Source of the DNA: a virus
IMG/VR virus record: IMGVR_UViG_3300025646_000436
Coordinates: 1-21,923 of that record
Direction: 5' to 3' (one strand)
DNA: 21,923 nt
A model generated the notes under the pieces. It made no database searches. It was not told the origin of the DNA and saw only the letters and a program-made list of their open reading frames with translations. Below, in pieces: positions 2,863 to 20,443 of this stretch. Made by a program: the position numbers and the translations under genes. Each line of letters opens with the position of its first letter. The first letter of the stretch is position 1.

Positions 2863-4188
2863 ATGAATGTTGAATTCCCAAATAAAGCAAAAGCACAATT
2901 TTCCATATTGAATGCTCGTGAAAAACTAAAGGATAAGAACCTAAGTGCAAATGAGCGTGAATATTGGGAACAAATAAGCCGAATTGATACAGTTATTGAT
3001 TACGGTGGGAGGGAGTCAGGTAAATCATTCAGAGGTTCATTATGGGCAACTGTTGCCTGTGTTGATTACAATCACAGAATATTATATTCACGATACGTGA
3101 TGAACACAACCGATCAGTCGATTACACAGGCACTTGATGAGCGAATTGAATTATTAGGGTATAACAACCGCGTTTCATTCGCAAACAACACATACACAAC
3201 AACCGATCAACATTCAAAAGGTCGCATATTTATATCCGGAATCAAGACAAGTTCCTTGAATCAAACGGCAAAATTGAAATCGCTTGAGGATTTTAGTATT
3301 TGGATAGTTGATGAAGCTGAGGAGTTCACGAATTACAGAGATTGGAAAAAGATAAAACGATCACTTAGGGCAAAGGATGTGCAATGTGTGGCTGTATTAT
3401 CGTTCAATCCTCCGACAATCGATCATTGGCTGTATACAGAATTCTTTGAAAACGTAGGGATTGAGCCTGGATTCAGCGGAATTGTAAATAATGTGCTTTA
3501 CATCTATTCAAATTATCTTGATAACATCGATCATATTGCTGAACACAACTTGCGAGAGTATGAAGAAAAGCGAATGAACTATGAGTATTATGAATCTTTA
3601 AACGATGAAGAGCGAAAAACCGTAATAGGTAAAATCGTATCGGATTGGGAGGATTACAAATACGAAATTTTGGGTGGTTTCAGATTACGTGCTGAAGGTG
3701 TTATTTTCAGGAATTGGAAATATGGAGAGTTCGATGAATCATTACCATACGCTTATGGTCTTGACTTTGGATCGAATGATCCGGATGCACTTTTAAAGGT
3801 TGCAGTTGATAGGAAGAACAAAATAATCTATATGGATGAGGTGTATTTTCAGAACAATACATCATCAGATGCACTTTCAAAGGTTCTTGAGGATCGTGTT
3901 GGGTATCGTGATTTAATTGTTGCAGATGCAGCGGATAGGCGTTTGATCCGTGACCTTTACGAGCAAGGTTTTAATATCAAAAAATGCAAAAAAGGACAAG
4001 GTTCTGTGTTGCACGGCATAAAAACAATGCAAGGATATTTGATTGTCATAACAAAAAAATCGATACATTTGTCAAAAGCATTGAATAATTATGCGTGGCA
4101 CGATTCAAAAAGTGGAATTCCCAAGCATGAACATTCACATTTACCGGATGCCGGGAGATATGCTTTTATGGATTTGATACGTGATTAA
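2863..4188 (+). CDS. terL: Terminase large subunit (packaging ATPase and nuclease)
   Basis: This 441-aa protein is the motor that pumps phage DNA into the prohead and cuts it. The N-terminal ATPase domain shows a Walker A motif GGRESGKS (residues 48-55), a Walker B motif IWIVDEAEE (146-154, with D150 and E151) and a coupling segment LSFNPP (179-184). The C-terminal RNase H-like nuclease shows the three expected acidic positions: D301 in YGLDFGSNDPDA, D354 in IVADAADRR and D429 in LPDAGRYAF. The length is normal for Terminase_3/PBSX-type large subunits and no key residue is missing. The portal gene begins 8 nt after the stop, the canonical order. Confidence 0.95.
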   Translation: MNVEFPNKAKAQFSILNAREKLKDKNLSANEREYWEQISRIDTVIDYGGRESGKSFRGSLWATVACVDYNHRILYSRYVMNTTDQSITQALDERIELLGYNNRVSFANNTYTTTDQHSKGRIFISGIKTSSLNQTAKLKSLEDFSIWIVDEAEEFTNYRDWKKIKRSLRAKDVQCVAVLSFNPPTIDHWLYTEFFENVGIEPGFSGIVNNVLYIYSNYLDNIDHIAEHNLREYEEKRMNYEYYESLNDEERKTVIGKIVSDWEDYKYEILGGFRLRAEGVIFRNWKYGEFDESLPYAYGLDFGSNDPDALLKVAVDRKNKIIYMDEVYFQNNTSSDALSKVLEDRVGYRDLIVADAADRRLIRDLYEQGFNIKKCKKGQGSVLHGIKTMQGYLIVITKKSIHLSKALNNYAWHDSKSGIPKHEHSHLPDAGRYAFMDLIRD

Positions 4189-4196
4189 TTGATAAT

Positions 4197-5939
4197 ATGG
4201 TATTTCAGGACGAAAACGAAGTAATTGAGGTTGTAAAGGCGTTGCAAAGCGTACCTAATTGGGTAAATGAAGCGCGAAAGGTGCATAACAAATATCGTGC
4301 GCTGAAGTACGGTGATGATTACCTAAAGTTGCTCATTGAAAAGATTGAGAAAATCGAAAGTGCAGACAGGGCAGATGCGCGTAAAAAGTATTCAAAAGAC
4401 ATTCGCGATATGTTCGGGCGCGTATTTGAACCAAGGCAAAACGTATTTAACGCATCAGGAGGTTCGTTTTCATTGGATATAGCATCGAATCCGATAAAGG
4501 AAAAAGTGATATATCACATTGATAGGTTCAAGGGAAATAAATCAATTCACAAGTACTTATCTGAATACTTCTTTGAATTGCTTGATGTTGATCCGAATGG
4601 CGTGATTTTCATGGAGTACGTTGCTGATGAAAAGATTTACCCAACATACAAATCAATTTGTGACATTCGTTACTATGAATCCAATGGGCAGAATATTGAG
4701 TTCATTGTATTTGAACCGAAACCATCAAAATCAAATCCATCGATTTATAAATGGCGCGTTGTTGATAGCGAGAATGATTATACTGTAATTCAGAACGGTC
4801 AAACATTTGTTATTGATTCTTCAAGCACGTTTAATCATCCGTTTGATGAAGTTCCAGGAATTGTGCTTTCAGATTATCAAAAACTTGGAACGGAATTGAG
4901 GTTTTCACCGATGTTTGAGATCGAACAATTATCTGAGGAGTATGCTCGTGATAAATCCGTTTTAATGCTTTACAAATTCATTCACGGATTCCCTATTCAT
5001 TGGAGGTACACTCAAATTTGTAGACGTTGCCACGGTACTGGGCGCGATGGAGAAAACGCCTGTGGTGTATGTGATGGAAAAGGGCATTTAGGAAAGAATG
5101 ACGTTACAGATATTCTTGAAGTTCCGATGCCACGTGACTCGGATGATATAAAAATCGCTCCGGATTTAGCCGGGTTTGTATCTCCTGATATTAAAACATG
5201 GGAACAGTACAGAATTGACCTTGAGAAACTTGAAAAGCAGATTGAAGACACTATATGGGGAACTCACCGCGTTAACGAAAGCAAATCAGAAACGGCAACA
5301 GGAAGGTTCATCGATGTGCAACCTGTAATGAACAAATTGAATTCATACGCAGATAATGTTGAGTGGGTTCACGAACAATTACTGAAGTGGGTTATTCAAT
5401 GGGCAAACGGAAGTGCTGAAGCTGAATATTCTGCTCATGTCGCGTATGGTCGCGGATTCATCATTGAGAGTCCGGATGTATTATTGAAAAGGTATGAGGA
5501 CAATCGATCTTCAGGATCAAATTGGACAGTCCTGGACAAACTATTGAACGAATACTTGTCAAGTAAGTACAGAAACAATCCTCAAGTATTGGAGATTGAA
5601 CAGAAGAAAATACGCATAGAACCATATTTGCACCTATCTTTCAAAGAAACAAAAGAGATTTATGGATCAAAGGCTGCAAATCAAAAAATGTTGTTCGGTC
5701 AATTTTGGCAAGAAGCAGACAAAAATAAAACTGTTGATCAGTTAAAAGCTGAATTTGATAAATACATATTACAATCGGAAGATGTTAATAAGTTGAGTGA
5801 ATCCGATAAAACAAATAACGCTCTTAATTTATTATCTCCTCTCGTAGCGACAAAAGTTCTTGAAGAATTGTCAAGTGAGGAAATAAGGTCATTAATAGGC
5901 AAGGATGGCAGTAATCCAAATCAACAAAGTAACCCATAA
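4197..5939 (+). CDS. Portal protein with an embedded DnaJ-like zinc module
   Basis: This 580-aa protein lies directly after terL. It is assigned as the portal, the ring at the capsid vertex through which DNA enters and to which the tail attaches. Position, length, the mixed alpha/beta N-terminal part, the segment FDEVPGIVLSDYQKLG, and the later helical region KSETATGRFIDVQPVMNKL fit the portal proteins of Gram-negative siphophages. It carries an insertion with two CxxCxGxG repeats, CRRCHGTG (C275, C278) and CGVCDGKG (C289, C292). That is the spacing of a DnaJ-type zinc-binding site. The C-terminal 60 residues are polar and helical. The portal call rests mainly on context; the zinc motif is directly visible. 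Confidence 0.85.
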   Translation: MVFQDENEVIEVVKALQSVPNWVNEARKVHNKYRALKYGDDYLKLLIEKIEKIESADRADARKKYSKDIRDMFGRVFEPRQNVFNASGGSFSLDIASNPIKEKVIYHIDRFKGNKSIHKYLSEYFFELLDVDPNGVIFMEYVADEKIYPTYKSICDIRYYESNGQNIEFIVFEPKPSKSNPSIYKWRVVDSENDYTVIQNGQTFVIDSSSTFNHPFDEVPGIVLSDYQKLGTELRFSPMFEIEQLSEEYARDKSVLMLYKFIHGFPIHWRYTQICRRCHGTGRDGENACGVCDGKGHLGKNDVTDILEVPMPRDSDDIKIAPDLAGFVSPDIKTWEQYRIDLEKLEKQIEDTIWGTHRVNESKSETATGRFIDVQPVMNKLNSYADNVEWVHEQLLKWVIQWANGSAEAEYSAHVAYGRGFIIESPDVLLKRYEDNRSSGSNWTVLDKLLNEYLSSKYRNNPQVLEIEQKKIRIEPYLHLSFKETKEIYGSKAANQKMLFGQFWQEADKNKTVDQLKAEFDKYILQSEDVNKLSESDKTNNALNLLSPLVATKVLEELSSEEIRSLIGKDGSNPNQQSNP

Positions 5940-5950
5940 AACAAATATAC

Positions 5951-6412
5951 ATGAACAATTCACAAATGGTTGTGGCGGCTAAATACCGCTTAACGGAGTT
6001 CGTGAGTATTCAACAGGGAACGTACAAACAAGATGGTTCTCGTGAGTTGATATTCGCAAAAAAAATCGTACCACGTGCATACGTTGAGGAGCAAAACGCT
6101 CAACAAAACAATGTTCTTTGGATTATCGATGAAGAAGCAACGCTTGAGATGATTCAGGAGCGTGAACGCAATATTGTTGAAAATGCAAAACGTGCTGAAC
6201 GTGAGAAGTTGACAACTGCCGATCTGATTGAAGCGATTGCCAAAGGTAACACGAAAGCTGTACAAGTGAAGGAGGAGGTTGTTAAGTCTGAAACTCCTGA
6301 TAATACTTGGAGCAAGGAAGAGTTACAACAGTACCTTGATGAAAATGATATTTCATACAGTCCTCGTCACGGAAAAGCGAAATTGATTGAATTAGCAACT
6401 AAAAACGATTGA
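5951..6412 (+). CDS. Head-region protein with a C-terminal HeH/SAP-like motif
   Basis: This 153-aa protein has an N-terminal beta-type part (residues 1-60), a charged helical stretch rich in Glu and Arg (62-115), and a C-terminal segment at 119-151. The last segment (TWSKEELQQYLDENDISY, then SPRHGKAKLIELA) matches the HeH/SAP-like pattern: helix, extended loop with a Gly-Lys pair, helix. In other phages such motifs sit on small proteins near head-completion genes and are thought to bind DNA or protein. It lies between portal and scaffold, with only 2 nt between its stop and the next ATG. A head-completion or DNA-contact role is inferred, not shown. Confidence 0.6.
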   Translation: MNNSQMVVAAKYRLTEFVSIQQGTYKQDGSRELIFAKKIVPRAYVEEQNAQQNNVLWIIDEEATLEMIQERERNIVENAKRAEREKLTTADLIEAIAKGNTKAVQVKEEVVKSETPDNTWSKEELQQYLDENDISYSPRHGKAKLIELATKND

Positions 6413-6414
6413 TC

Positions 6415-7248
6415 ATGGCAAAAGTAGTTATATCAGGAAGAGAATTTGATATTGATGATGATGCTTTAAAAAGCGGTCTTGAATCGGGAACAGTTGAATT
6501 GAATCTTGAAAATGTAGTGTTACGTACAACGGAAGAGGATTCAACATTCCAGGAAAACTTGAAAAAGGATGCTCAATCATTAGGTATTGAATTAGGACGC
6601 AAAAACGTTCTTAAATCACTTGGAATTGAGGAGTTGAATGGAGCGCACAAGAGCGATGATAAAACGCTTGAGGTGTTAAATGGTTTTGTTCAGTCATCGG
6701 TATCAAAAGCGATGGAAGAGGCAAAGATTGAACCAAATAAAAAGGTTCAGGAGTTATCAAAAGACCTTGAAACGTTAAGAAACACTGTAAAGGAAAAGGA
6801 AAACGCTTACAATTCGCTAAAGGATGAGTTTTTTGGTTACAAGAAGAATCAGAAAATCACATCAACACTTTCATCATTAATTCCGGACAACGTGATTATT
6901 GACAAAAGCGATATGCTTACGATCTTATCAAACAAGATAAAAGTTGATCTCGATGAATCAGGAAACATCTTCGCTTTGAATAATGATGGATCACCGATCA
7001 AAAATCCAACAACGCTTGAACCGTTACCAATCGATTCAGTAATTAAAGGATTCTTTGATAATAATCCAACATATCTGAAGCCGGTTCAAGGTGGTGCTGG
7101 TGGTGGTGATAGTACCTCAGGAAAAGGAGGTAAACAAACTATTGAAGAATTCCAAGAGGAGATGAAGAAAGCCGGTCACGCTTTAAACAGTCCAGGGTTC
7201 GTTAATGAAATGAATTCAAGAATAAAAGCCGGGTTACTTGACATTTAA
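6415..7248 (+). CDS. Probable capsid scaffold protein
   Basis: This 277-aa acidic protein lies just upstream of the major capsid gene, the usual place of the scaffold that shapes the prohead and is later removed. It has an N-terminal acidic region, a coiled coil (about residues 103-147, KKVQELSKDLETLRNTVKEK), a small folded middle, a Gly/Ser-rich flexible linker (GGAGGGDSTSGKGGK) and a short helical tail ending in MNSRIKAGLLDI. Coiled coil, flexible linker and short C-terminal helix is typical of scaffolds, whose tail binds the capsid protein. The ATG at 6415 is preferred to an in-frame TTG at 6409. No protease domain is visible. Confidence 0.8.
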   Translation: MAKVVISGREFDIDDDALKSGLESGTVELNLENVVLRTTEEDSTFQENLKKDAQSLGIELGRKNVLKSLGIEELNGAHKSDDKTLEVLNGFVQSSVSKAMEEAKIEPNKKVQELSKDLETLRNTVKEKENAYNSLKDEFFGYKKNQKITSTLSSLIPDNVIIDKSDMLTILSNKIKVDLDESGNIFALNNDGSPIKNPTTLEPLPIDSVIKGFFDNNPTYLKPVQGGAGGGDSTSGKGGKQTIEEFQEEMKKAGHALNSPGFVNEMNSRIKAGLLDI

Positions 7249-7267
7249 AAAACAATGTTTATATTTG
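7238..7267 (+). promoter_or_regulatory. Bacteroidetes-type promoter P1
   Basis: TTG at 7238-7240, 19 nt, then TATATTTG at 7260-7267 match the Bacteroidetes -33/-7 consensus (TTG, about 19 nt, TAnnTTTG). It overlaps the end of the scaffold gene. Transcription would start near 7274, and the first thing downstream is the terminator at 7315-7345, so the product would be about 70 nt long unless the terminator is read through. Confidence 0.5.
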
Positions 7268-7273
7268 CTTACC

Positions 7274-7345
7274 TCTTGATTCTTTTTTCACAGCGTTTAG
7301 TTTTAAGTTTGAAGAACGGTTGTCCTATCGGATAGCCGTTTTTTT
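7274..7345 (+). ncRNA. Candidate short RNA between P1 and the terminator
   Basis: This stretch is bounded by promoter P1 and an intrinsic terminator, so it would give a roughly 70-nt transcript ending in an 11-bp hairpin and a U tract. The 5' half is pyrimidine-rich and shows no strong internal structure. It could be a phage small RNA or a by-product of a leaky promoter-terminator arrangement. The ends are estimated from the promoter position. Confidence 0.25.
7315..7345 (+). terminator. Intrinsic terminator before the capsid gene
   Basis: An 11-bp stem pairs 7315-7325 (AACGGTTGTCC) with 7330-7340 (GGATAGCCGTT) through a TATC loop, with two G-U pairs, and runs into seven T residues (7339-7345). 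It would end transcripts from the packaging and head-assembly genes and from P1. Confidence 0.85.
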
Positions 7346-7346
7346 A

Positions 7347-7376
7347 TTTGCATAATCAAAAGATTTACTATATTTG
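7347..7376 (+). promoter_or_regulatory. Bacteroidetes-type promoter P2 for the capsid gene
   Basis: TTTG at 7347-7350, 18 nt, then TATATTTG at 7369-7376 match the Bacteroidetes -33/-7 consensus. It begins immediately after the U tract of the upstream terminator, so it starts a fresh transcription unit. The start point would be near 7383, giving a leader of about 100 nt before the major capsid ATG at 7485. It is the best promoter candidate in the window. Confidence 0.7.
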
Positions 7377-7380
7377 TAAC

Positions 7381-7424
7381 TGTACTGTGTACAATGTCCG
7401 CAAAAATTGGTACTGTGTACCGAT
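7381..7424 (+). repeat. Two tandem palindromes in the capsid-gene leader
   Basis: An 11-bp direct repeat GTACTGTGTAC occurs at 7382-7392 and 7410-7420. Each copy is the core of a palindrome with the same TGT centre: TGTAC-TGT-GTACA (7381-7393) and ATTGGTAC-TGT-GTACCGAT (7406-7424, with one T-G pair). The outer pair changes from T-A to G-C while staying complementary. Both copies are followed by ATGTC. The first lies at the predicted start point of P2, the second about 25-40 nt into the leader. They may be protein-binding operators or RNA hairpins. Confidence 0.65.
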
Positions 7425-7484
7425 GTCTTTAGGAGCAAATCGCTCACTTTTTTCAATTATTGTTTAATTTAAAACCGTTTAAAA

Positions 7485-8513
7485 ATGGCAAATTTCGCAA
7501 CTGCGGCATTGGTTAAAGCACAAGCAAAACTTCAAGCCGCATTCCAATCAAATGAATTGCGTTTCCGTGATCCGGCAGTTCATAAACTATTTCTTCAGAA
7601 CAGTTCAATCATGTTCCCTGATTACAACGAATTAAAAACTCGTGATGATCGTACTGTTGAAACAAATTATGCAACAAGAACTGCGAGATCTTTGGGTTCA
7701 GCACGTTCACACAACCACACGGGTGCGCAAGGAGATTCTGCGGTAATGACTCCATCATGGACAACTTACTCAGATGATTTCGTTTCCACAATCAAAGAAG
7801 CAGACAACAAAATCTATTCTTATGAGGAAATGCACATGAGTAAAATGCAGAACGTTATCGCTAACTTCGCTGAAGGTCTTGATTCTGCGGCATCTACTTA
7901 TTTGTTCTCAAACAGAACAGGAGTAAACGGTGCGACTGTTGAAGGTACGTTTGATGCAACTGATGATACTTTTGAGATTGATGAAACAACTAACGGAAAC
8001 CGTGCAATCCAAATCACGAAAATGGTTATGGACATCAACAAATACCAAGGTGTTCGTTTCTCAATCGTTTGTGATTCGATTGCTTACAACAAGTTCATGT
8101 TCAATGCTGCTCAAGGTGTTTCAAATGCAACAAATTATTCATTCCAATTCCAGGGAATTGATTTCATTCACGATCCGGCGTTAACTGCGGCGGCTGCCGG
8201 TCTTGCATCTGCATACTCAAAAGGATATTGGATTGCAGTTCCTGAGGGTTCAATCGGTGCTTTGCCTTGGATTCCAAAACAAAACAAGCAAGGTCTTGAG
8301 TTGAAGGAAGCATCTTATGGATCAATCTTGAATCCTATTGATGGAATTCAATATGCTGTTCATACTTATGAGGAAAGAGCAGATGGTACATCTTTGGGTG
8401 GTTACACTCAGGATGTTAAGATTGAAACTGAAATTTCAGTTGATATTGCATACGTTCACGCTCCATTGAGTGCTGCCGGTGCAACTCCAATGTTCGCTTT
8501 CGCTCTTGTATAA
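7485..8513 (+). CDS. Major capsid protein
   Basis: This 342-aa protein is assigned as the main shell protein, probably with the HK97 fold. It follows the scaffold gene, has its own promoter, and is rich in Ala, Thr, Asn and Gly. The layout fits: an N-terminal helical arm (residues 1-40), an extended polar segment that could be the E-loop (about 50-100), a long helix (SYEEMHMSKMQNVIANFAEG, about 110-130) and beta/helix elements to the C-terminus. There are no cysteines except one in SIVCDSI. The start context is A-rich (AAAAATGGC) without a Shine-Dalgarno site, as is common for highly expressed Bacteroidetes genes. It ends in tandem stops TAA TAG. Sequence motifs for this family are weak, so context carries much of the call. 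Confidence 0.85.
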   Translation: MANFATAALVKAQAKLQAAFQSNELRFRDPAVHKLFLQNSSIMFPDYNELKTRDDRTVETNYATRTARSLGSARSHNHTGAQGDSAVMTPSWTTYSDDFVSTIKEADNKIYSYEEMHMSKMQNVIANFAEGLDSAASTYLFSNRTGVNGATVEGTFDATDDTFEIDETTNGNRAIQITKMVMDINKYQGVRFSIVCDSIAYNKFMFNAAQGVSNATNYSFQFQGIDFIHDPALTAAAAGLASAYSKGYWIAVPEGSIGALPWIPKQNKQGLELKEASYGSILNPIDGIQYAVHTYEERADGTSLGGYTQDVKIETEISVDIAYVHAPLSAAGATPMFAFALV

Positions 8514-8532
8514 TAGATAAAAAGAAACTACC

Positions 8533-9603
8533 ATGTTCAATGTAACAAAGGTGCAAAATGGGTTAACGGGGGTTGTCGGTGTTCGGCAGCCTCTTAACCC
8601 TGAGTATGCAATTTTAACTGCTCCAAATACTGCGAGTTCATCAGGTTTATATCTTGATGAGGTATCGCATTACAAGACAGAATTCTTTATTGATAACATC
8701 GATTACAAGGATGCTTCTGACGCTGACAAAAATACGTTGATTACTAACATTCAAAAATCAGCAATCTCAAGCGTTATGTATGAAGTTTTCGGTGAAGAAA
8801 GTTACATTGATCGGAATTTCGTCTATTCAAAAGCGACAACGCGACAAACTCCCGAATCAGGGATATTAAATGGGTTCGTTGGTTTCAAAATTAAACCGAG
8901 TGCAAAGAAAAACATCGGTTTTGAGATAACACGAATCAGGCTTGAATTCCAAGGTGCTGGTGACATCAAAATAATTCTGTTCAATTCCAACGTTAACGAT
9001 CCTATAAAGACAGCGGACATTACAATTACATCGAGCGATCAAATTGAGGAATTGAATTGGGTTGTTGACTCAACTGATGGAGATTATAAAGGCGAGTATT
9101 ATCTTGGGTTCATTTACGATGGTTCGTTAATTCCATTTAAACGTGATTATCAGGATTCAAACTATCAAAACAACATCGCGGAATTAAACATCGAAAGAGT
9201 GTACGTTAAAGATGCGGATGGTGTTGCGATATTTGACCTTGATCAAGTTTATGGATTGAGCCAAAATTGCGGATTAAATCCGGACATTACCGTTTATTCA
9301 GATTATACCGACTTGATATTGAATAATAAAAAACTCTTTGCGAGAGCAATTCAGTATCAGTGGGGAATTGATATGATGAGAACTTACATAAATTCAATGA
9401 GAAGTAACAGAAACGAGCGAATATCAAAAGATGTAATTGCTCAGACGTTACAAGCGATTGAAGGGAGTACAATCAACAATCCTTTGAAAATTGTCGGGTT
9501 ACGTGAATATTTAGGTGATGAGATTGTGAAACTTCGCAAATCTGTTGAACAGTTGAAGCGTGGGTATTTTCCGTATGGTGTTGAAGTAATAACTGCGAAA
9601 TAA
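8533..9603 (+). CDS. Phage structural protein of unknown role, between capsid and tail terminator
   Basis: This 356-aa protein has three apparent parts. The N-terminal part (about residues 1-100) is mixed. The middle (about 110-205) is strongly beta-predicted and looks like a jelly-roll or carbohydrate-binding-like sandwich (FEITRIRLEFQGAGDIKII, ADITITSSDQI, GEYYLGFIYD). The C-terminal part is helical (about 255-350, LFARAIQYQWGIDMMRTYI and LREYLGDEIVKLRKSVEQL). Position between the capsid and neck genes suggests a head-tail connector or head-decoration protein, and the middle domain could face outwards. The last base of its stop codon is the first base of the next ATG (TAATG). I do not recognise the family with confidence. 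Confidence 0.7.
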   Translation: MFNVTKVQNGLTGVVGVRQPLNPEYAILTAPNTASSSGLYLDEVSHYKTEFFIDNIDYKDASDADKNTLITNIQKSAISSVMYEVFGEESYIDRNFVYSKATTRQTPESGILNGFVGFKIKPSAKKNIGFEITRIRLEFQGAGDIKIILFNSNVNDPIKTADITITSSDQIEELNWVVDSTDGDYKGEYYLGFIYDGSLIPFKRDYQDSNYQNNIAELNIERVYVKDADGVAIFDLDQVYGLSQNCGLNPDITVYSDYTDLILNNKKLFARAIQYQWGIDMMRTYINSMRSNRNERISKDVIAQTLQAIEGSTINNPLKIVGLREYLGDEIVKLRKSVEQLKRGYFPYGVEVITAK

Positions 9604-10142
9604 TGGCATTGATTCAGAAAACTGATCCGATTGGAGTTGACAAGGTGATCGATGGATTACAAGAGTATTTATTCAATGAGTTGAATTTATCTTTGTGGCA
9701 ATCCTATCCGAGAGCATATAAAAACCCGAATCATTTTAATGATCAAGTTTTCATTCCTGAGGTGTTCATTGATGGAGAGTATTACGAAGCATTTTATGAT
9801 GATGACTACAATTTAACTTCATATTTTGTTGTAGATGATGAGAGGAATTTCGATGGTGGTGTGTACACTACCGAAATCGCTTTGATTATTCAAGCGAACG
9901 TTGAAACGTTATTGCCTTCTATACCTCACAGAGCAGATGAAGAACTGTTGAATTTGATTTGTCGTGAGATACAATATTACCCTGGTGAGGGTATCGATTT
10001 ACTTGGTGTAGAGACTTCCGTATTAGCGGTGTATCGGGAGTTTACAAGTGAACGATTAACATTCAATGATATGAATGAATTTTTCGTGGCGCGAATTAAT
10101 ATGAACGCCACATATTACACCGATTGTTGTGCAAATTGTTAA
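9603..10142 (+). CDS. Probable tail terminator / neck protein
   Basis: This 179-aa acidic protein starts in a TAATG overlap with the preceding stop. An N-terminal helix (GVDKVIDGLQEYLFNEL) is followed by WQSYPRAYKN, a beta-rich core with FFVARINMN near the end, and a Cys-rich tail (CCANC). This order and its place directly before the tube gene match tail terminator proteins, which form a hexamer that caps the finished tail tube and joins it to the head. The segments TEIALIIQANV and the late beta strand are typical of that fold. The assignment is from pattern and position; another neck role is possible. Confidence 0.65.
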   Translation: MALIQKTDPIGVDKVIDGLQEYLFNELNLSLWQSYPRAYKNPNHFNDQVFIPEVFIDGEYYEAFYDDDYNLTSYFVVDDERNFDGGVYTTEIALIIQANVETLLPSIPHRADEELLNLICREIQYYPGEGIDLLGVETSVLAVYREFTSERLTFNDMNEFFVARINMNATYYTDCCANC

Positions 10143-10154
10143 TACGTATAAAAA

Positions 10155-11090
10155 ATGAGCGTTAATTCATGTACTTGTACTGATCCACGTTTCCCGGTAT
10201 TGGGAAGACCAAACTGTGTGATCAGAAAGAAAAAACTTGCGTTTCCTGTTCTTATCCCACGATACAAAGCGGATGGAACGCGTAACGTTATCGACTTGAG
10301 TTCTCCGACATTAGGAGCAGATATTCAAGCACTTGTTCAAGCATCAACAGCGGTTCTTGAGCGACTTTACCCATTCCCAAGAGTTGAGGAAGTAACTTTT
10401 GATAGAACTGACACGGCTTATCAAACAATGGCATCAGGTCGCAAGTTCAAACTTGATGGTGAAGGTGGTATCAGAACGGTATCTTTCATGTTGCCTGGTG
10501 ATGATGGTGTTGAAGCCATCGCGAGAGAATTGTCAAACGGATCATGTTCTGAAGTTGATGTTTTTGAGGTGACTGTTGATGGAAACATTTGGGGTGTTAT
10601 GGATGACACTTCTGTTGCAGCACTTCGCGGTTATGCAATGGAGCGTGAAACATTTGATTCATTCATTCAACGTGCAGTTGATGGTTCAATCAATGGTGTT
10701 ATGGTTTCATGGGATTTGGAATCTGATGAGGATTTCGTGAATTCTTATGCAATAACTTCAAGCGAACTTGGATATAAAGCAACTTCATTGCGTCCATTAA
10801 TCCGTGCGGCTTGTACTGCTCAAGAAGCATCTTCAGTAACTATTGAAGCGACAGTTGTTACTGATTTCGGTACTGCGACAAACAAAGAGGGTGTTCTTGG
10901 ACTACTTACAGCAAACTTCACAGTTACCGCAAACGGTACTCCTGTGACGGTTACTGCGGCAGAGGTTGGAGAAGGTGTTTATACACTTACTCACGCTGAC
11001 CTTGATATTACTCCAGGTGATGATGTAATCGTATCGGTATCTGCGACAAGTTACGATGTTGCTAATGGTACGTTTGTAGCGACATTATAA
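10155..11090 (+). CDS. Major tail tube protein with C-terminal Ig-like domain
   Basis: This 311-aa protein is assigned as the subunit of the tail tube. The N-terminal 220 residues are beta-rich with a cysteine-containing start (CTCTDPRFPVLGRPNC: C6, C8, C21), as expected from its place between the tail terminator and the tape measure. The last 90 or so residues (about 222-311) look like a bacterial Ig-like (invasin/adhesin type) domain: VTIEATVVTDFGTA, ANFTVTANGTPVTV, EGVYTLTHADLDI and DVIVSVSATSYDVANGTF. Such domains are common decorations on phage tube proteins and may bind carbohydrate on the cell surface. No sheath gene is nearby, which supports a non-contractile tail. Its stop overlaps the next ATG. 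Confidence 0.8.
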   Translation: MSVNSCTCTDPRFPVLGRPNCVIRKKKLAFPVLIPRYKADGTRNVIDLSSPTLGADIQALVQASTAVLERLYPFPRVEEVTFDRTDTAYQTMASGRKFKLDGEGGIRTVSFMLPGDDGVEAIARELSNGSCSEVDVFEVTVDGNIWGVMDDTSVAALRGYAMERETFDSFIQRAVDGSINGVMVSWDLESDEDFVNSYAITSSELGYKATSLRPLIRAACTAQEASSVTIEATVVTDFGTATNKEGVLGLLTANFTVTANGTPVTVTAAEVGEGVYTLTHADLDITPGDDVIVSVSATSYDVANGTFVATL

Positions 11091-11314
11091 TGTCGAAACT
11101 TCCGGAGGTTGTAATTCTTGGTGAAGAGCGTTATTCAGGAAAGTTTTTGCGGAGCGTAACCGAAGCACAAGCAATCCGTATCTTTGCCAAAAACGACAGA
11201 AACCAAGTTGTTAACGCTTGGAAACAAGCAAACGGGTTATCTGTTCCGAATTACACAAAGAAGCGTAAAAAGGCAGAAGAGCCAAAAGAAGAAAACAAAA
11301 CCGGTGAAGAATAG
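11090..11314 (+). CDS. Small basic protein after the tail tube gene (74 aa)
   Basis: A folded first half (PEVVILGEERYSGKF, then a helix with VTEAQAIRIFAKND) is followed by a very charged C-terminal tail rich in Lys and Glu (KKRKKAEEPKEENK). It starts in a TAATG overlap with the tube gene and ends in tandem stops TAG TAA just before a strong terminator, so it is the last gene of the capsid-to-tube unit. Position suggests a tail assembly helper, but no programmed-frameshift site was seen, so a lambda G/GT-like chaperone pair is not supported. The function is unknown. Confidence 0.6.
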   Translation: MSKLPEVVILGEERYSGKFLRSVTEAQAIRIFAKNDRNQVVNAWKQANGLSVPNYTKKRKKAEEPKEENKTGEE

Positions 11315-11333
11315 TAATCGGTTAATTTATTGG

Positions 11334-11370
11334 AAAAGGGAGTGTTTAATTGCATTCCCTTTTTTGTTTT
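11334..11370 (+). terminator. Strong intrinsic terminator closing the capsid-tail tube unit
   Basis: An 11-bp stem pairs 11334-11344 (AAAAGGGAGTG) with 11353-11363 (CATTCCCTTTT), with one G-T pair and an 8-nt loop, and continues into TTTTTTGTTTT. The A run on the 5' arm means it could also work on the other strand, though no gene there needs it. It lies only 4 nt before the next ATG. Confidence 0.85.
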
Positions 11371-11373
11371 AAG

Positions 11374-11832
11374 ATGATAAGATTTGAAGCGATACATAAT
11401 TTACTTGATTCAGCGAGAAAGCTGAGTGAAATCCGTGCTTGGAGATTCGCTACCGACAGAACAACTTTGCAGTTCATTATATCGATGAACACAAACGAAC
11501 AGTTGGGTGAGGATGGTATTGATTCAACGGGTGCAAGTTTAGGTGATTACGCACCGATGACAGTTCAGTTTAGGAGGTCAAAAGGTTTGCAAGTTGGGCA
11601 TATTGATTTCAAGGTTACTGGACAATATTGGTCATCTTGGAAAGTCAGAGCGACATCAAGTGAATTGATAATAACAGTTGATCAAGATCGTTTTCAGGAG
11701 TTAACACAATTACTTCGATTTTCGGAGGAACACGTTGGTTTGACAGATGAAAACATGGATAGATTAGCTGAAATGATTAAACGTAAATACATAGAGTATG
11801 TTGAAAGAGAATTACAAAATGGCATTGGATGA
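11374..11832 (+). CDS. Tail completion / neck protein, HK97 gp10-like
   Basis: This 152-aa protein has the layout of gp10-like tail completion proteins. An N-terminal helix is followed by a polar region with GIDSTGASLGDYAPMTV, a basic loop (FRRSKG), the sequence IDFKVTGQYWSSWKVRAT, a strand pair (SELIITVDQDRF) and a C-terminal helical part (GLTDENMDRLAEMIKRKYIEY). The combination of DSTG..LG.Y, VTGQYW.SW and GLT.EN is familiar from Bacteroidetes phages. It would complete the head-tail joint. The ATG at 11374 is preferred to an in-frame TTG at 11350, which lies within the terminator. It is the first gene after a strong terminator with no obvious new promoter. Confidence 0.7.
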   Translation: MIRFEAIHNLLDSARKLSEIRAWRFATDRTTLQFIISMNTNEQLGEDGIDSTGASLGDYAPMTVQFRRSKGLQVGHIDFKVTGQYWSSWKVRATSSELIITVDQDRFQELTQLLRFSEEHVGLTDENMDRLAEMIKRKYIEYVERELQNGIG

Positions 11833-12280
11833 GGTTACTTTGTGGGAGTACAGAAAAGCGTTATCAGGCGATCTGACTAAACTTAGGAGGAATGAAGACA
11901 AAGGAACTGAGGAGGAAGATGAACGTGCGTTTGAAGCCGTTTATGATGATTATTTGAAGAGGTTTGGATTAGGAGATAAATATGAAAGGTATGCAGAGTT
12001 GCAAATGGAGTTGATCGATGCTTATACTGATTACATTGAGAATGACAACGAATTTGCGAGGAACTTGATAAACAGACTTGAAAGAGAAATGGAGCAACTT
12101 ACAACCGATTCGCGTGGTGGTGATATGGACGATGCCATTATCATTGTCAGCAAATGGTTGGGAACATACATAAATGAACGCGAATGGATCGCGAAGGATT
12201 TTTTTAAGGCATTGGATAATTGTATAAAGGAAAACGAACAAATAAGGCAGAAGCATGGCAAAGCAAATAAAGAAGAGTGA
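11819..12280 (+). CDS. Acidic helical protein before the tape measure, possible tail assembly chaperone
   Basis: This 153-aa protein is almost entirely helical and acidic. Segments include VTLWEYRKALSGDLTKL, YDDYLKRFGLGDKYERYAEL and VSKWLGTYINEREWIAKDFF. The gene starts inside the end of the previous gene and overlaps the tape-measure start by 26 nt, so it is made in step with both. In siphophages the slot just before the tape measure usually holds tail assembly chaperones that coat it before tube polymerisation. That role is inferred from position and helical, charged character. An alternative ATG at 11798 would add seven residues; 11819 is preferred for its AAAATGGC context. Confidence 0.6.
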   Translation: MALDEVTLWEYRKALSGDLTKLRRNEDKGTEEEDERAFEAVYDDYLKRFGLGDKYERYAELQMELIDAYTDYIENDNEFARNLINRLEREMEQLTTDSRGGDMDDAIIIVSKWLGTYINEREWIAKDFFKALDNCIKENEQIRQKHGKANKEE

Positions 12281-15200
12281 TCTCGTAGAATCGAACCCGT
12301 TTAGTGAGATTAAAAAGAGTGCTGAAGAAGCGAAGGCATCGGTTGTGTTGCTTGAAAAGGCATTGAACGCGGTTAAGGAAGCGAGTAAAATGGTCAAAAC
12401 GTCCGCACCGAAAGAGGTTAACAATACAAAGGATATAAAAGACCTAAACGCTGCGCAGCAAAAGGCGAACGAACTTGCGAAAGCAAAGATGATGATTGAT
12501 AAGGATTTGCAAAAGGAGCGTTTGAAGTTGCAGAAAATCAATCGTGAATACAATACTCTTTTAAAGGAGGAAATAACCCTGGAGCAAAAAGAACTTGGAA
12601 CACTTGAAAAATTAAAAGTTGAAAATGCTCAGTTGAGAAGGGAGCGCGAAAAGTTGAACCTTGAAACCAAAGAGGGTACAATGAGAATGCGCGAAATAAA
12701 TGCTCAACTTGACAAGAATAATGCAAAAATAAAGGCATCCGGAGATCAACTTAAACAACAGCGTATGAATGTGGGTAACTACACGAGTGCAGTTGAGGGG
12801 TTGCGTGGAAAATTGACAAGTTTAGCCGGTGCATTTGGTATGGCTTTCGGTGTTACTGCAATAGCACGAAACGCGTTTAATGTAATTGCTGATTTTGATC
12901 AAGGAGTTGCAAATTTAGCATCTGTATTAGGCAAAACACGTGAACAAGTTGTTGCGCTTGAATCCGATGCAAAACGATTAGGAGCAACGACATCATTTAC
13001 AGCTACACAAGTTGCAGAACTCCAAACAGAATTTGCAAAGTTAGGATTTACTGAAAGTGAAATATTAAACGCAACTGAAGCAACATTAAACCTTGCAGCC
13101 GCGACAGGATCAGACTTAGCGACTGCGGCAGCAGTTGCCGGTTCAACTGTCAGAGGTATGGGATTGACTGCCGAGGACACGATGCACGTTACAGATGTAA
13201 TGGCTAAATCATTTAGTACTTCGGCACTTGATATGAATAAGTTTGCTGAATCGATGAAAGTTGTTGCTCCTATTGCGAATTCCGCTGGTGTATCTTTAGA
13301 GGAAACAACAGCAATGCTTGGAGCGTTGGCAAATGCCGGTATTTCAGGAAGTAACGCCGGAACTGCATTACGTAGAATATTATCAGAAATCGGTGCATCA
13401 GGGAAACCAGTTGGAGAAGCATTGAAGGATTTAGCAGCAAAGGGATTGGATTTAGCCGGTGCAGAGGATGAAGTTGGTAAAAACGCAATGAGTGCCTTAC
13501 TTGTATTATCTAAGCAAACAGAAACCATTGATAAACTTACAGGTGAATTTGAAAATGCTGATGGTGCTGCGGCAAAGATGGCAGAAACTCAGTTGAAAAC
13601 AGTCGGAGGAGCAGTTGCATTATTGCAATCCGCATGGGAAGGTTACATTTTAAAATTAAATGATGCGACAGGGGCGGGAAGTAAACTTGCATCAGGGATC
13701 AAATTCCTTGCCGATAATCTTGATACCATATTATCAACATTAGGTCAAGTCATCAAGTTGTTTGTTATCTATAAAACGACAATGTTGGCAATGAAGATGA
13801 AAGATCGTGTTGCTGAGTTTGTACAGATGCAAAGAGCAATAAAAGATTCAGGAGAATCAATGCAAGGTGCATCACAAAGTGCAAAAGCATTTGGCGCGGC
13901 GTTAAAGGGAATCGGATTTTCTGTTGCAATTGCTTTATTAATGGAACTTGTTAAAGGGTTGTATGATTTCGCAACCGGTGCAGCGAGAGCAAGGAGAGAA
14001 GCTGAAGCATTTAATTCAGCAATTTCAAAGGGTGCAGAACGTGCAACTGCTGATCTTGGGAAGGTTAACGCAAAAATAGAGGAGCAAGTTAATCTATTGC
14101 GTGAGCAGTTGTCAAAAGGTCAGATTACTCAACTTGAATTTGAACAAAAAAGCCAGGAGTTGACATCTAAAGGAACAAAACTAATTGGTGAGCGTATAGA
14201 TTATCTTTACAAGCAAAGAAAAGCGTATGAGGATGAAATTGAAATTCAAAGGGAACGTGTTAAATCTCTTGAGGATAGATTGAATTTAACATATGATGAG
14301 CAAGTTCAGTTGCAAACAGAGAAAAACAACCTTGCGAAATTACGTGGTTCGTACAAGTTTTTAAATTCAGAAATAGAAACACTTAAAGCCGGGAAACTTG
14401 ATTTGAAAAATAGGACATTTGAATTGTCACTATCGATCAATGAAAGTAAAAAAGAATCCGAAAAAGACACCAAGGCTAAAAAGGATCAAAAAGATGCAAT
14501 TGTTGATCTTGATGAGGTATTGAAAAAATATGAGGAAAGGCAAAGGAAACTTGCCGAAGAACGTAGAAAATTAGCAGAAGAAGTCCCTGATTTTGGTATT
14601 CCCGATTTGCCTAATGTTAATCCTGAGGATGTATTCTTTTTAACTGATGAGCAACTGAAAGACATTGAGGATAAAATTGCCGAAATGAGAAGAAAAAGAC
14701 TTGAACAAGAACGGCAATACATTGATTTAGCAACGAATTATTTTGTTGAACGTGCAGATGAGCGAATATCAAAGATTGAAGAGGAGATGAAAATGGCACA
14801 GGATCAAGCTGATTTGTATCGCAAACTTGCCGCAGAGGGTAATTTAACGGCAAAGGAATCACTTGCCGAACAGGATAGATTGATTGCAGAGAGTAATTTA
14901 CGCAAAGAACAAGAAGAGAAGCGAAAGCAACGAATACTGTTGGTAAGTTCAATACTTCAATCGTACAATGCGAACTTACAAGCCGGTGACGATAGTACAC
15001 AAGCGTTCACAAAGGCAATTACTTCAAGTGGAGTATTACAACAATTCATTGCAGCGTTACCGGCGTTTGAAAAAGGTACTGAGGATACCGGTTTAAATGG
15101 TTCGGGCGTGGATGGTCGTGGCGGAATGTTGTCGATATTGCATCCAGGAGAGCGAGTGATGACAAAGGAGCAGAATATGAAAATGCGCGGATTGTCAAAT

Positions 15201-15458
15201 GATGAGGTTGCGGATATTATTCACGGATGGAAATACGGCAAATTGATTGATTCTGCACAAATTGGTGGTGCTTGGGAAAGTGCTGCTATTGTAGGTCAGT
15301 TAATGAGTGTTGAAAATAGAATTGCCGGAGTTGAAAAGGCAATACTGAATAAGCCTGAACATACTGCCGAAATAATCAATGCGACTGCCAAAGGATTTAC
15401 TTTGATGCACAAACAGAAGAATACTCACAAAACAATCACAAAAAGGTTCAAAATATGA
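12255..15458 (+). CDS. Tape measure protein
   Basis: This 1067-aa protein sets tail length and is passed into the cell during DNA entry. In order it shows: a charged coiled coil (about residues 10-175); a TP901-type tape-measure core (about 210-460) rich in Ala, Gly and Thr, with SVLGKTREQVVALESDAKRL, GATTSFTATQVAELQTEFAK and the ANAGISGSNAGTALRRIL segment; two hydrophobic stretches (about 491-512 and 552-575) that could enter the membrane; and a long coiled coil (about 758-892). Near the end is the motif GVDGRGGMLSILHPGERVM (about 951-969). At the usual 0.15 nm per residue it predicts a tail of about 160 nm. It overlaps both neighbours, the downstream one by ATGA. Confidence 0.92.
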   Translation: MAKQIKKSDLVESNPFSEIKKSAEEAKASVVLLEKALNAVKEASKMVKTSAPKEVNNTKDIKDLNAAQQKANELAKAKMMIDKDLQKERLKLQKINREYNTLLKEEITLEQKELGTLEKLKVENAQLRREREKLNLETKEGTMRMREINAQLDKNNAKIKASGDQLKQQRMNVGNYTSAVEGLRGKLTSLAGAFGMAFGVTAIARNAFNVIADFDQGVANLASVLGKTREQVVALESDAKRLGATTSFTATQVAELQTEFAKLGFTESEILNATEATLNLAAATGSDLATAAAVAGSTVRGMGLTAEDTMHVTDVMAKSFSTSALDMNKFAESMKVVAPIANSAGVSLEETTAMLGALANAGISGSNAGTALRRILSEIGASGKPVGEALKDLAAKGLDLAGAEDEVGKNAMSALLVLSKQTETIDKLTGEFENADGAAAKMAETQLKTVGGAVALLQSAWEGYILKLNDATGAGSKLASGIKFLADNLDTILSTLGQVIKLFVIYKTTMLAMKMKDRVAEFVQMQRAIKDSGESMQGASQSAKAFGAALKGIGFSVAIALLMELVKGLYDFATGAARARREAEAFNSAISKGAERATADLGKVNAKIEEQVNLLREQLSKGQITQLEFEQKSQELTSKGTKLIGERIDYLYKQRKAYEDEIEIQRERVKSLEDRLNLTYDEQVQLQTEKNNLAKLRGSYKFLNSEIETLKAGKLDLKNRTFELSLSINESKKESEKDTKAKKDQKDAIVDLDEVLKKYEERQRKLAEERRKLAEEVPDFGIPDLPNVNPEDVFFLTDEQLKDIEDKIAEMRRKRLEQERQYIDLATNYFVERADERISKIEEEMKMAQDQADLYRKLAAEGNLTAKESLAEQDRLIAESNLRKEQEEKRKQRILLVSSILQSYNANLQAGDDSTQAFTKAITSSGVLQQFIAALPAFEKGTEDTGLNGSGVDGRGGMLSILHPGERVMTKEQNMKMRGLSNDEVADIIHGWKYGKLIDSAQIGGAWESAAIVGQLMSVENRIAGVEKAILNKPEHTAEIINATAKGFTLMHKQKNTHKTITKRFKI

Positions 15459-17167
15459 TCGAAACTGAATTTTTCATAAATGGTATTGCTCACAAGCCTG
15501 TAAACGCTGATGAAATCGGGTTTAAATTCGATTACACACGTAATTGGCAAGAAGCTGAGGTGAATGTTGACAATGTTATTCTTGCAAATAAGGCTTATGA
15601 AATTGTTTTGCAACATATAAATACGATCGGACATCACGAAGGTATACCGTATACAATAAAAATCGGATCACAAATCTTTGAATATTATATTGATTTAGTT
15701 GATAATCCGGTATACCGAACAAGTGAAGGTGAATTTACATTGAAAAGAAGAAAAGGCGTTGATTGGTTTGAACAAAAGGCATCCGGATTGTCATTTGAAG
15801 CGATAAACGCTGAAAGTACTATTACGGGAATATTCAACGTTCCTTATATCATCGTAAAGGACAATCAAGTTGAATTGTTGATCATGCTTTCAATAAGTAC
15901 GTACACGCTCACAAAGGAGTTGATTACGGCAACGCGTGAACTTGCAAATGCAACGGCAGACCTTGTTGAAGCGTTAACCCCTGACGTTCCGCCAAACGCA
16001 AAGCCAGGTGAAATTGCATCAGTAGCGATTAAGGTTGCCGCATCTGCCGTGTATGTTGCGCTTTTAATCATCGCTTTGATAAATCTCATTTCACAAATCA
16101 TTGAGTTGATCATTCCGATTGTTAGGAACTTCAAAGCAAATACATTCAGATCATTGATAACTCAAGGTTTACAACATCCTGAGATAAACCTTGGATTTTC
16201 GTCATCATTAATTGAACTTGATTCAACGTTTTTGCCTGTTCCGCTGTTGAAACAAAAACAGTCGATATTTGATTACCTAATCGCACAACAAACTCAAGCA
16301 TATACAAAAGGTTATCCGACTGCGTCAGATGGAATTTGGGCAACGTTGATGGGTATGATCAATGAGGTTTGTAAATGGCTGAACGCTGAATATAGAATTG
16401 TGAACGGTGTTCTTTTCATTGAAAATGAATCGTATTGGCAAAACAATTCAGGAGTTAATATCACGACAACTCTTGAAATACAGGATCGCAAACAAAATGA
16501 ATGGACTTATAATTTTGATGAAACTTGGTCGCGTTATTACATTCATGCAGCATATGACATTTCCGATACACATACAATGGATAAGAGTTCAGGAATTTAT
16601 GCCGAATACCAAACACAACCGATTACTGTAATTAACCCTGATTTAGTCAATATAAAAGGTCTTAGGGAGGTTGCTTGTGGTTTTGCCTATGGAACGAGAA
16701 AAAATCAACTAAACGCCGTTGAATTGACTTTGTTACCATTTGCACAATTAGCGGATTCATTAATCAACTTTCTTGGAGGTAATTCATCACTTGCGAGTAA
16801 AGTTGTGAACCGAGTTGGTGTATTACAAGTGAGTCAACAATTCTTTGTTGTTCCAAAAGTGTTGTGGACAGTAGGCGGTAAACAGCCATCAAATTACTTC
16901 GATATTATCGGGATGCCTACTATTTACACAAAATATCATTCATCGGAGCAAGTGAAAGAAAACTTCAAGCAGTTGCACCAGGGAAGAATTAGATTCAGTC
17001 CGGAACAATTTTACGCTTTACTGAATAACAACTACGTGAATGATCAGTTCGGAAACTCGCTAAAAATAATTACCTTTGAATGGGTAAATGAAGCGAGGGA
17101 AGCGGAGATATATTACTCAATCTCAAGCGATGAAGCGAATAATTTAACAACGATAGCAATTTCATAA
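15455..17167 (+). CDS. Distal tail / tail-tip protein with a central hydrophobic region
   Basis: This 570-aa protein follows the tape measure, the usual place of the distal tail protein. The first 125 residues are beta-rich (EFFINGIAHKP, then YTIKIGSQIFEYYIDLVD), as in Dit-like baseplate rings. Residues about 130-225 are unusual: an amphipathic helix, a Pro-rich link (TPDVPPNAKPGE) and a strongly hydrophobic stretch at 187-223 (IASVAIKVAASAVYVALLII, then ALINLISQIIELIIPIV). The rest is mixed beta/alpha with a late VNRVGVLQVSQQFFVVPKVL segment. It starts in an ATGA overlap with the tape measure. A tail-tip role is inferred from position; the hydrophobic part may contact the outer membrane or pack inside the tip. 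Confidence 0.7.
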   Translation: MIETEFFINGIAHKPVNADEIGFKFDYTRNWQEAEVNVDNVILANKAYEIVLQHINTIGHHEGIPYTIKIGSQIFEYYIDLVDNPVYRTSEGEFTLKRRKGVDWFEQKASGLSFEAINAESTITGIFNVPYIIVKDNQVELLIMLSISTYTLTKELITATRELANATADLVEALTPDVPPNAKPGEIASVAIKVAASAVYVALLIIALINLISQIIELIIPIVRNFKANTFRSLITQGLQHPEINLGFSSSLIELDSTFLPVPLLKQKQSIFDYLIAQQTQAYTKGYPTASDGIWATLMGMINEVCKWLNAEYRIVNGVLFIENESYWQNNSGVNITTTLEIQDRKQNEWTYNFDETWSRYYIHAAYDISDTHTMDKSSGIYAEYQTQPITVINPDLVNIKGLREVACGFAYGTRKNQLNAVELTLLPFAQLADSLINFLGGNSSLASKVVNRVGVLQVSQQFFVVPKVLWTVGGKQPSNYFDIIGMPTIYTKYHSSEQVKENFKQLHQGRIRFSPEQFYALLNNNYVNDQFGNSLKIITFEWVNEAREAEIYYSISSDEANNLTTIAIS

Positions 17168-17169
17168 AT

Positions 17170-17385
17170 ATGGAGAAATTACAAGAACATCTAAAGGGTT
17201 TAACATCAGAAGTTGACGCGTTGTTGAAATCAATACCGTTGAATTATCTTGATGATGAACTATCGGATAAAATTAAGGTGGCACAAAACTCCCTTGATTT
17301 TTCTAATAATGAAAGTATAGAAGTTAAACAACAGAAATTAAATACCGCACTCAATGCCATTGCAAATTACAAACGAACAGTATAA
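17170..17385 (+). CDS. Small helical protein between tail-tip genes (71 aa)
   Basis: This protein is predicted to be all-helical with heptad-like spacing: LQEHLKGLTSEVDALLKSI, DDELSDKIKVAQNSL and KQQKLNTALNAIANYK. It probably forms a short coiled-coil bundle. The gene starts 2 nt after the previous stop, and its end overlaps the start of the large tail protein by 32 nt, so it is translationally linked to both. It may be a small tip component or a chaperone for its larger neighbour. No family is recognised. Confidence 0.6.
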   Translation: MEKLQEHLKGLTSEVDALLKSIPLNYLDDELSDKIKVAQNSLDFSNNESIEVKQQKLNTALNAIANYKRTV

Positions 17386-20300: not shown

Positions 20301-20443
20301 TGGTTACATTGGATTATTTTGGTGTTACTGATACTATTTACCTATCGGGTAATTTCCAAGAGGTTGTATATTGGCGAAAAGATAAAACATCTGCATTGAC
20401 AACGATTGAAACAAATATTAACGATTATTATTCAGCATTCTAA
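17354..20443 (+). CDS. Large tail protein with C-terminal arabinofuranosidase/lectin-like domain
   Basis: This 1029-aa protein is beta-rich throughout and belongs to the tail tip. The N-terminal two thirds hold repeated beta-sandwich-like segments, and a middle part (about residue 575 onward, KYGVKLEYGYLNDWRYWFEQ) resembles a segment common in large tail proteins of Bacteroidetes phages. The C-terminal domain (about 781-1029) contains AYSFRRVSS, VVRLIREVDDVEQDFFFVG, VKTWYDQTGNGRHAVQ (WYDQTGNGR at about 840) and LNGKVCALFDGVNDAYEI. These are the hallmarks of the alpha-L-arabinofuranosidase B catalytic-type (concanavalin-like) domain found on phage tails. It probably binds, and might cut, surface polysaccharide. 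Its stop overlaps the next ATG as TAATG. Confidence 0.75.
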   Translation: MPLQITNEQYNSLPALYANAGKWVSASVSFRNCYRAGSGNSNTFSSGVDNLIIQSGSWLDYGFSDGDTVTIYFKKNGQSVSFSRTIDYINGSYMYFTASLPSQYQYKTFPTSGTYTGMFIVANKQPQSVDMRFNLALTGSTSSDSVIDSELNRFIDNQVGSLAIGIPINMVQLGNKSGGYVKDVVLTRNSDTTFTNAATNGTATEYNYTITFKFLQWGIFQNDQTSPFWYNAANCLNPVIRIASFPQINTSNGQMFDLNGSSNANTGWFNENYNGYPSAYTFTSIELTDTSGNSIDKVAYNQTTHGQAILSAPNQLNGSSNYRLGLAFTPFDDVLYKNLSTDFAQNCLVNAPDVNFQHSASPDATLRSGFENSDGARFDLQNIQFSHSASVLTVDFDIIPSASSEAFFDNLSDGLRNLMMWVQVSNYTTDGTQNSDEVNVLIYNDDCYDAPRIGGQYPDVVDDVLLDHAGNDVTSTAYPNTTTEDNVLYTGTFRLIDDEVVDGVRCGIMCRNISTNDSFMLEEVYFDFTNVPFISGKYEVNETINRGFLLPPSSDRNIIRLTRDTSLDIVGKYGVKLEYGYLNDWRYWFEQANVDDDLFDSNEPFNGKNKNWQKLQSGDWELFVAYFVRVQGVDDYNYTPFIDRAYEDDPNVSCTVTYTDSNGNTINALPNTGIVDVEAVFDWINAFADEWAEVTCETFEGTRIGFISSVLDHDGQPNNCLLPSPGQTKLQKTLGATSLTVNFRIDCSQIGSNSVSLSYRSFSTPKVAIGYLITTNKDAELAYSFRRVSSKTIYPDSLPVVRLIREVDDVEQDFFFVGDAVDDIAIRTFASGSNVLVKTWYDQTGNGRHAVQTDKTKMAKVANPGSVLKLNGKVCALFDGVNDAYEITGTTSTSPTYYITGVIERTAGTETVLIGSLTNTYYPIRWSSFNVLITNMAVSGNAASSSALTGQTIITAGRDASLSIYVQADGTFLDSDTSSADPLVTLDYFGVTDTIYLSGNFQEVVYWRKDKTSALTTIETNINDYYSAF

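Follow-up and report, generated by a model that had tools for sequence, protein, structure and literature searches.

Several described systems share features with the capsid leader reported here. In stem-loops of the ompA/papA type, an abundant message has a helix at its 5′ end or close to it. Structure in this position makes mRNAs more stable, since RNase E and RppH act on 5′ ends that are single-stranded, with at least two unpaired nucleotides required by Bacillus subtilis RppH (all as given in the cited sections of PMC3997798). The present leader differs in having tandem copies with a near-fixed loop before a phage capsid gene, and its stabilising effect is a predicted one. The T4 gp43 translational operator is likewise a hairpin upstream of its gene in which loop bases matter (cited part of PMC3014915), but it is a single hairpin that reaches the ribosome site, whereas two to four hairpins and a putative reader are proposed here. 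Roquin constitutive decay elements carry a UGU triloop on a C-G closing pair and a free stem and can be tandem (PMC6294493, in the section cited); they act in eukaryotic 3′ UTR decay, so the likeness is one of shape and no kinship is claimed. Promoters of the phage N4 virion RNA polymerase also combine a short stem with a central-purine triloop, but they are DNA hairpins with another loop rule and a dedicated polymerase (PMC4496689, cited part). As a structured mRNA leader, the element belongs to a known kind; what is unusual and new is a tandem array with fixed loops on free stems, dedicated to the capsid gene, together with lineage-specific loop switches. A literature search yielded no description of such an RNA leader before a capsid gene, which is not proof of its absence in print, and no Rfam family reached its gathering threshold in window positions 7200-7600 or in 13 whole loci, the best sub-threshold match lying far below (24.3 bits vs 58.7).

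The window, that is, the whole stretch of DNA analysed, is the 21.9-kb virus record G000. It carries a terminase gene (2863-4188), a portal gene (4197-5939), a small gene (5951-6412), a gene in the scaffold position (6409-7248), a major-capsid-like gene on the + strand (7485-8513) and, further downstream, a tape-measure gene. The capsid protein matched phrog_7231 (virion structural protein; E 2.6e-32) and aligned at 32% identity (E 4e-33) with the major capsid protein annotated in the cyanophage Pseudanabaena phage Pan5, on which two matches the capsid assignment is based; the AlphaFold model of the capsid protein had a mean pLDDT of 34. The C-terminus of the small gene product weakly matched Arc-like repressors (phrog_1539, E 7e-5), and the product had a sub-threshold match to Ish1 in Pfam. 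Between 7248 and 7485 lie a terminator-like hairpin, a promoter with a Bacteroidota box and two tandem palindromes. The terminator-like hairpin with its T-run (7311-7344, + strand; 15 bp, −19.9 kcal/mol, z −6.66) is strong and would close the upstream transcript. A second promoter-like pair, TTGACA with TATATTTG (7260-7267), was seen at 7238-7267; its transcripts would probably stop before the capsid gene, since the terminator-like hairpin intervenes.

The palindromes sit right behind the promoter box. Copy 1, TGTACTGTGTACA (7381-7393), and copy 2, GGTACTGTGTACC (7409-7421), are spaced 28 nt apart and form the dyads TGTAC-TGT-GTACA and GGTAC-TGT-GTACC. The exact repeat with identical TGT centres described in the sequence-only reading was recovered: GTACTGTGTAC occurs at 7382-7392 and 7410-7420 and has no other mismatch-free copy in the window. 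The outer pair also changes as that reading had stated, from T7381-A7393 to G7409-C7421, with complementarity kept. The motif ATGTC, said to follow both copies, does so one base out of register, being 1 nt past the GTAC of copy 1 (7394-7398) and 2 nt past that of copy 2 (7423-7427). An 11-mer repeat within 60 nt arose in 90 of 200 Markov controls, pairs of perfect dyads with 5-bp arms and 3-nt centres within 40 nt averaged 1.1 per Markov control, and a repeated dyad with a complementary outer pair appeared in 1 of 600 random controls. The whole-leader fold energy was ordinary (z −0.59; 56 of 200 shuffles equally good). By itself, then, the two-copy pattern in the window is only moderately unlikely and counts as modest evidence. 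Chance duplication was also considered; the window opposes it only weakly (1/600 controls), and the relatives rule it out.

The predicted promoter P2 (7347-7376, + strand) consists of TTTG (7347-7350) and TATATTTG (7369-7376) and follows the Bacteroidota consensus TAnnTTTG with a −33 TTTG, as quoted in the cited part of PMC7366714. The TAnnTTTG box of Flavobacterium psychrophilum occupies positions −12 to −5 (PMC9723704, cited section); applying this rule, the predicted transcription start is 7381 on the + strand, which is the first base of the first hairpin. Three hairpins follow on the same strand. Hairpin A (TGTAC-UGU-GTACA, 7381-7393) is copy 1 and, by alignment, an extra 5′ hairpin, such as one relative (L021) likewise has. 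Hairpin B (ATTGGTAC-UGU-GTACCGAT, 7406-7424) is copy 2, whose dyad extends to 8 bp, and aligns as the homologue of conserved hairpin 1; a model built from such leaders matched it at 7403-7449, with the window itself a training member of that model. The two copies are not equivalent, copy 2 being the conserved hairpin and copy 1 the addition. A linker, ATGTCTTTAG (7423-7432), corresponds in alignment A3 to AAGTCT of the relatives. Hairpin C (GAGC-AAATC-GCTC, 7433-7445), placed by the same alignment and the fold, is weaker than A and B and occupies the place of the relatives' second hairpin (conserved hairpin 2) without an NGU loop. An A/T-rich stretch (7446-7484) then leads to the start codon.

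To compare this leader with homologues, viral contigs were scanned with the capsid protein and its alignments, which gave eight close relatives with 65-77% capsid identity over the matched part. Through a leader pattern scan we reached a more distant clade (L048-L056), including two loci (L055, L056) that lie in Bacteroidota genome assemblies and have 28-33% capsid identity to the window. Pan5 and two contigs near it with identical leaders (L081, L082) were found by protein similarity. After L056 and L082 were dropped, the compared set comprised 19 distinct leaders including the window, with capsid identity down to about 28%; the leaders are related and the L048 clade was first found by its hairpin pattern, so that counts over this set are not independent. 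The pattern scans returned 22 stretches, among them the known leaders L030, L037 and L046, a new clade (L035) and four stretches of another capsid family (L027, L028, L033, L034). MAFFT alignments of the wider set (A6, A7) misplaced some hairpins, and no count uses them.

The comparison with relatives was decisive. In alignment A3 of the nine close leaders, 94.9% of cells were paired, and two-sided compensatory changes occurred at 10 of the 11 base pairs. The covariation score was 1.03 compared to 0.33 in shuffles (0/500 as high), sliding the partner by 1-3 columns reduced pairing to 30-61%, and RNAalifold, unprompted, predicted the same 11 pairs. When five more distant leaders were added, pairing was 92.9% and covariation 0.95 vs 0.28, to be read with caution as this enlarged alignment was fitted to the model. 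None of the eight closest relatives had the same promoter with the dyad missing. Taken alone, the pair change between the two copies in the window, in which the sequence-only reading saw a hint that symmetry matters, would not show selection. The comparison does show the marks of a structured cis-acting RNA leader: helices that covary, lie on the mRNA strand and precede a single gene.

These alignments also bear on the proposal that a dyad-binding protein recognises the palindromes as DNA operators where P2 transcription starts. Two near-identical dyads do stand at the start point in the window, but conservation of arm sequence across relatives, as in a DNA operator, was not found: the arms are largely unrelated and vary at every conserved pair, with complementarity kept and two-sided changes at 10 of the 11 pairs. 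The wobble count (4 G-U, 5 A-C and 4 other, with every A-C mismatch in the outermost of the pairs counted) gave no distinction between RNA and DNA. In addition, as shown below, the loop is strand-specific (34/49 vs 0/49). We regard DNA operators as very improbable. The other suggestion of the sequence-only reading, that UGU-loop RNA hairpins bind a regulator or shield the 5′ end, is supported by the compensatory pairing and the loop kept in homologous leaders.

Comparison across relatives shows hairpins on the mRNA strand, with covarying stems and near-fixed loops, placed ahead of the capsid gene. Of the 19 distinct leaders, 18 carry two or more short hairpins whose triloop is N-G-U or, rarely, GGC, and Pan5 has four; this count required at least 4 of 5 Watson-Crick pairs and NGY loops and covers 47 sites, a few clearly outside the array. 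For triloop hairpins of at least 5 bp, with the leader defined as the 140 nt before the 19 capsid genes, loops ending in GT made up 34 of 49 in leaders compared to 52 of 884 in the remainder of these loci (Fisher 4e-27, a value that overstates independence because the leaders are related). The reverse-complement loop class accounted for 0/49 and 62/884, respectively, which makes the element strand-specific. Stems diverge across relatives while loop and strand stay fixed, and a strand-fixed loop on a free stem argues for RNA rather than a sequence-specific DNA operator. In one leader (L051), about 110 to 50 nt ahead of the capsid start, three hairpins with unrelated stems all have a GGC loop where most relatives have NGU, as if all loops had switched in step. 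Another (L053, 2880-2960) has no NGY hairpin; by eye, GGGAU loops cap three of its stems, one of 7 bp and two of 3-4 bp, the latter two absent from the predicted fold. The GGGAU loop recalls the CsrA/RsmE loop motif; a CsrA-type site was considered for it, and the NGU loops of the other leaders do not fit such a site.

The geometry of a short stem and a three-base loop with a central purine, on a stem that is free where pairing is kept, is shared with the extruded DNA hairpins that serve as promoters for the N4 virion RNA polymerase (PMC4496689, in the part cited). That source gives 5′G and 3′A in the template-strand loop as needed, whereas the loops here read NGY on one strand and RCN on its complement and lack this combination. 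No RNA polymerase family was found among five large Pan5 proteins and three large window proteins; a genome search with phrog_414 carries no weight on this question, as its control matched nowhere. Promoters of this type are therefore extremely improbable here.

We then related the first helix to the predicted start in 16 leaders. The helix began at +0 to +2 in 11 of them, at +4 to +5 in 3 and at +12 to +13 in 2. Boxes for this count were picked by eye and L049, L051 and Pan5 were left out; the helix counted was an outer GTC/GAC-type pairing around the first hairpin, also by eye, in L048, L050, L052 and L055, and an extra hairpin without an NGU loop in L021. This placement is what would be seen if the hairpins only kept the 5′ end double-stranded, with the loop fixed for stability or folding speed and no reader involved, and the principle is established in the cited sections of PMC3997798. 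One hairpin would suffice for that purpose, yet at least two are present in 18 of 19 leaders; moreover, the loops are far more constrained than the stems, and L051 shows a single different loop (GGC) on three unrelated stems. A plain 5′ stabiliser is accordingly a serious alternative that we nevertheless judge unlikely.

To assess where the array occurs, we searched for tandem NGU pairs on both strands of 507 kb. Sixteen were found, 15 in capsid leaders and 1 elsewhere (L073), compared to 0, 2, 3, 3 and 3 in Markov controls. The sources included 19 array leaders, of which this strict detector picked up 12, missing L016, L049, L051, L053, L054, L055 and L056 through a bulge, 4-bp stems or other loops. 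In 204 kb, all 14 matches of model R1 up to E 3 were capsid leaders, five of them untrained (Pan5, 0.0028; L052, 0.0074; L048, 0.11; L049, 1.5; L055, 2.0), and no match was obtained in 5 of 19 sources (L050, L051, L053, L054, L081). With model R2, 647 kb yielded 7 matches up to E 3; every one was a capsid leader and one was untrained (L050), while L051, L053, L054 and L081 were again missed. A wider-set model search gave three matches outside this capsid family (E 2.3-5), two of which are the L027/L028 leader. In 300 genomes of one Bacteroidota order, R2 matched only the assembly holding L055, a leader in the model; this is a weak negative, as stricter filters scored 20 candidates per listed genome. 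Among 395 Bacteroidota genomes, the window capsid protein had a match in 1, again that assembly, and it had none in genome contigs by pattern scan.

No tandem NGU pair was present in the array-less phages phiST (50 of 78 kb), 6H, P12002L and a Rhodobacteraceae phage. The last two have homologous capsid genes (25% and 32% identity) behind leaders of 34 and 50 nt without an array, which indicates that the array is confined to part of the capsid family and dispensable to the family as such. Among the Polaribacter records of the protein search, P12002L was the one read.

NGU hairpins were also observed at other loci. The four stretches L027, L028, L033 and L034 belong to an unrelated capsid family (phrog_247) and have a scaffold leader with two NGU hairpins, the second adjoining the ribosome site; in the first, L027 and L033 show a compensatory pair change. 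These stretches were found by hairpin pattern and so are not independent, and the sample is small. In Roseobacter, EBPR, Pelagibacter and Alteromonas phages of other capsid families, scaffold/capsid operons have NGU-triloop hairpins immediately ahead of the ribosome site or the start codon (other-family coordinates: L027, 3674-3728; L087, 1640-1740; L089, 1850-1880; L090, 1255-1290; L091, 1150-1175). Among published relatives, a UGU hairpin stands in the same place as in the L027 group, with 6 bp in DSS3_VP1 and DSS3_PM1 and 4 bp in EBPR siphovirus 1; Aegir and R9Y2 have 4-bp NGU hairpins, and VSe103 and 9g none with an NGU loop.

A long structural operon that opens with tandem hairpins also brings to mind the put antiterminators of phage HK022, likewise tandem hairpins early in a phage transcript, which would let RNA polymerase read through the late operon. 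The window leader differs in showing no evidence of downstream terminators needing read-through: terminator-like sites in 7486-21923 were not in excess (8 found vs 9.3 expected, one on the + strand), and the array stands at the capsid gene rather than at the head of the structural cluster. A put-type antiterminator is therefore improbable. When window ORFs were compared by BLAST with 17 other stretches, several of them short, the terminase, portal, scaffold-position, capsid, adaptor and tail-terminator genes were shared to varying extent, and the small gene at 5951-6412 was matched in the window's own clade only. No gene was tied to the array alone, and no candidate loop reader emerged from this comparison.

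Taken together, the results support well an RNA element, as far as sequence comparison can show it. The explanation we favour, at a probability of roughly 0.6, is that the run of two to four short NGU/GGC-triloop hairpins is a cis-acting RNA element: a 5′-terminal leader that would shield the capsid mRNA, its loops being repeated sites for a factor. Here we infer a start site, a stabilising effect and a factor, in its existence and its identity. The array would start at or near +1 of the capsid mRNA, with an A/U-rich stretch running from it to the start codon, and the 5′-terminal helix would leave few or no unpaired 5′ nucleotides and so slow 5′-end-dependent decay. Conserved loops in repeated hairpins exceed what a 5′ stabiliser needs, which suggests that the strand-fixed loops may be sites for a loop-reading factor, most likely a phage protein or a host protein. 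The simplest candidate reader would be the capsid protein itself, with which the placement ahead of the capsid gene fits. Such a factor would set the lifetime of the capsid mRNA, the frequency of its translation, or both. Against this explanation stand the ordinary fold energy of the leader, the missing NGU loop of hairpin C, the leader L053 without NGY hairpins and the two array-less relatives.

A broader and more tentative idea, which we hold to be possible though doubtful, is that NGY-triloop arrays form a control code for phage capsid genes, so far undescribed and in wide use. One factor would read the loops on free stems, lineages would have switched all loops in step (NGU, GGC and perhaps GGGAU), and in unrelated Proteobacteria phages hairpins of this kind would likewise sit directly upstream of the ribosome site in scaffold-capsid operons.

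Tailed phages need capsid protein in great excess, and the leader might serve strong expression in Bacteroidota. The element is compact (about 45 nt), strongly covarying and repeated, and it has natural loop variants, which makes the identity of the loop reader directly testable.
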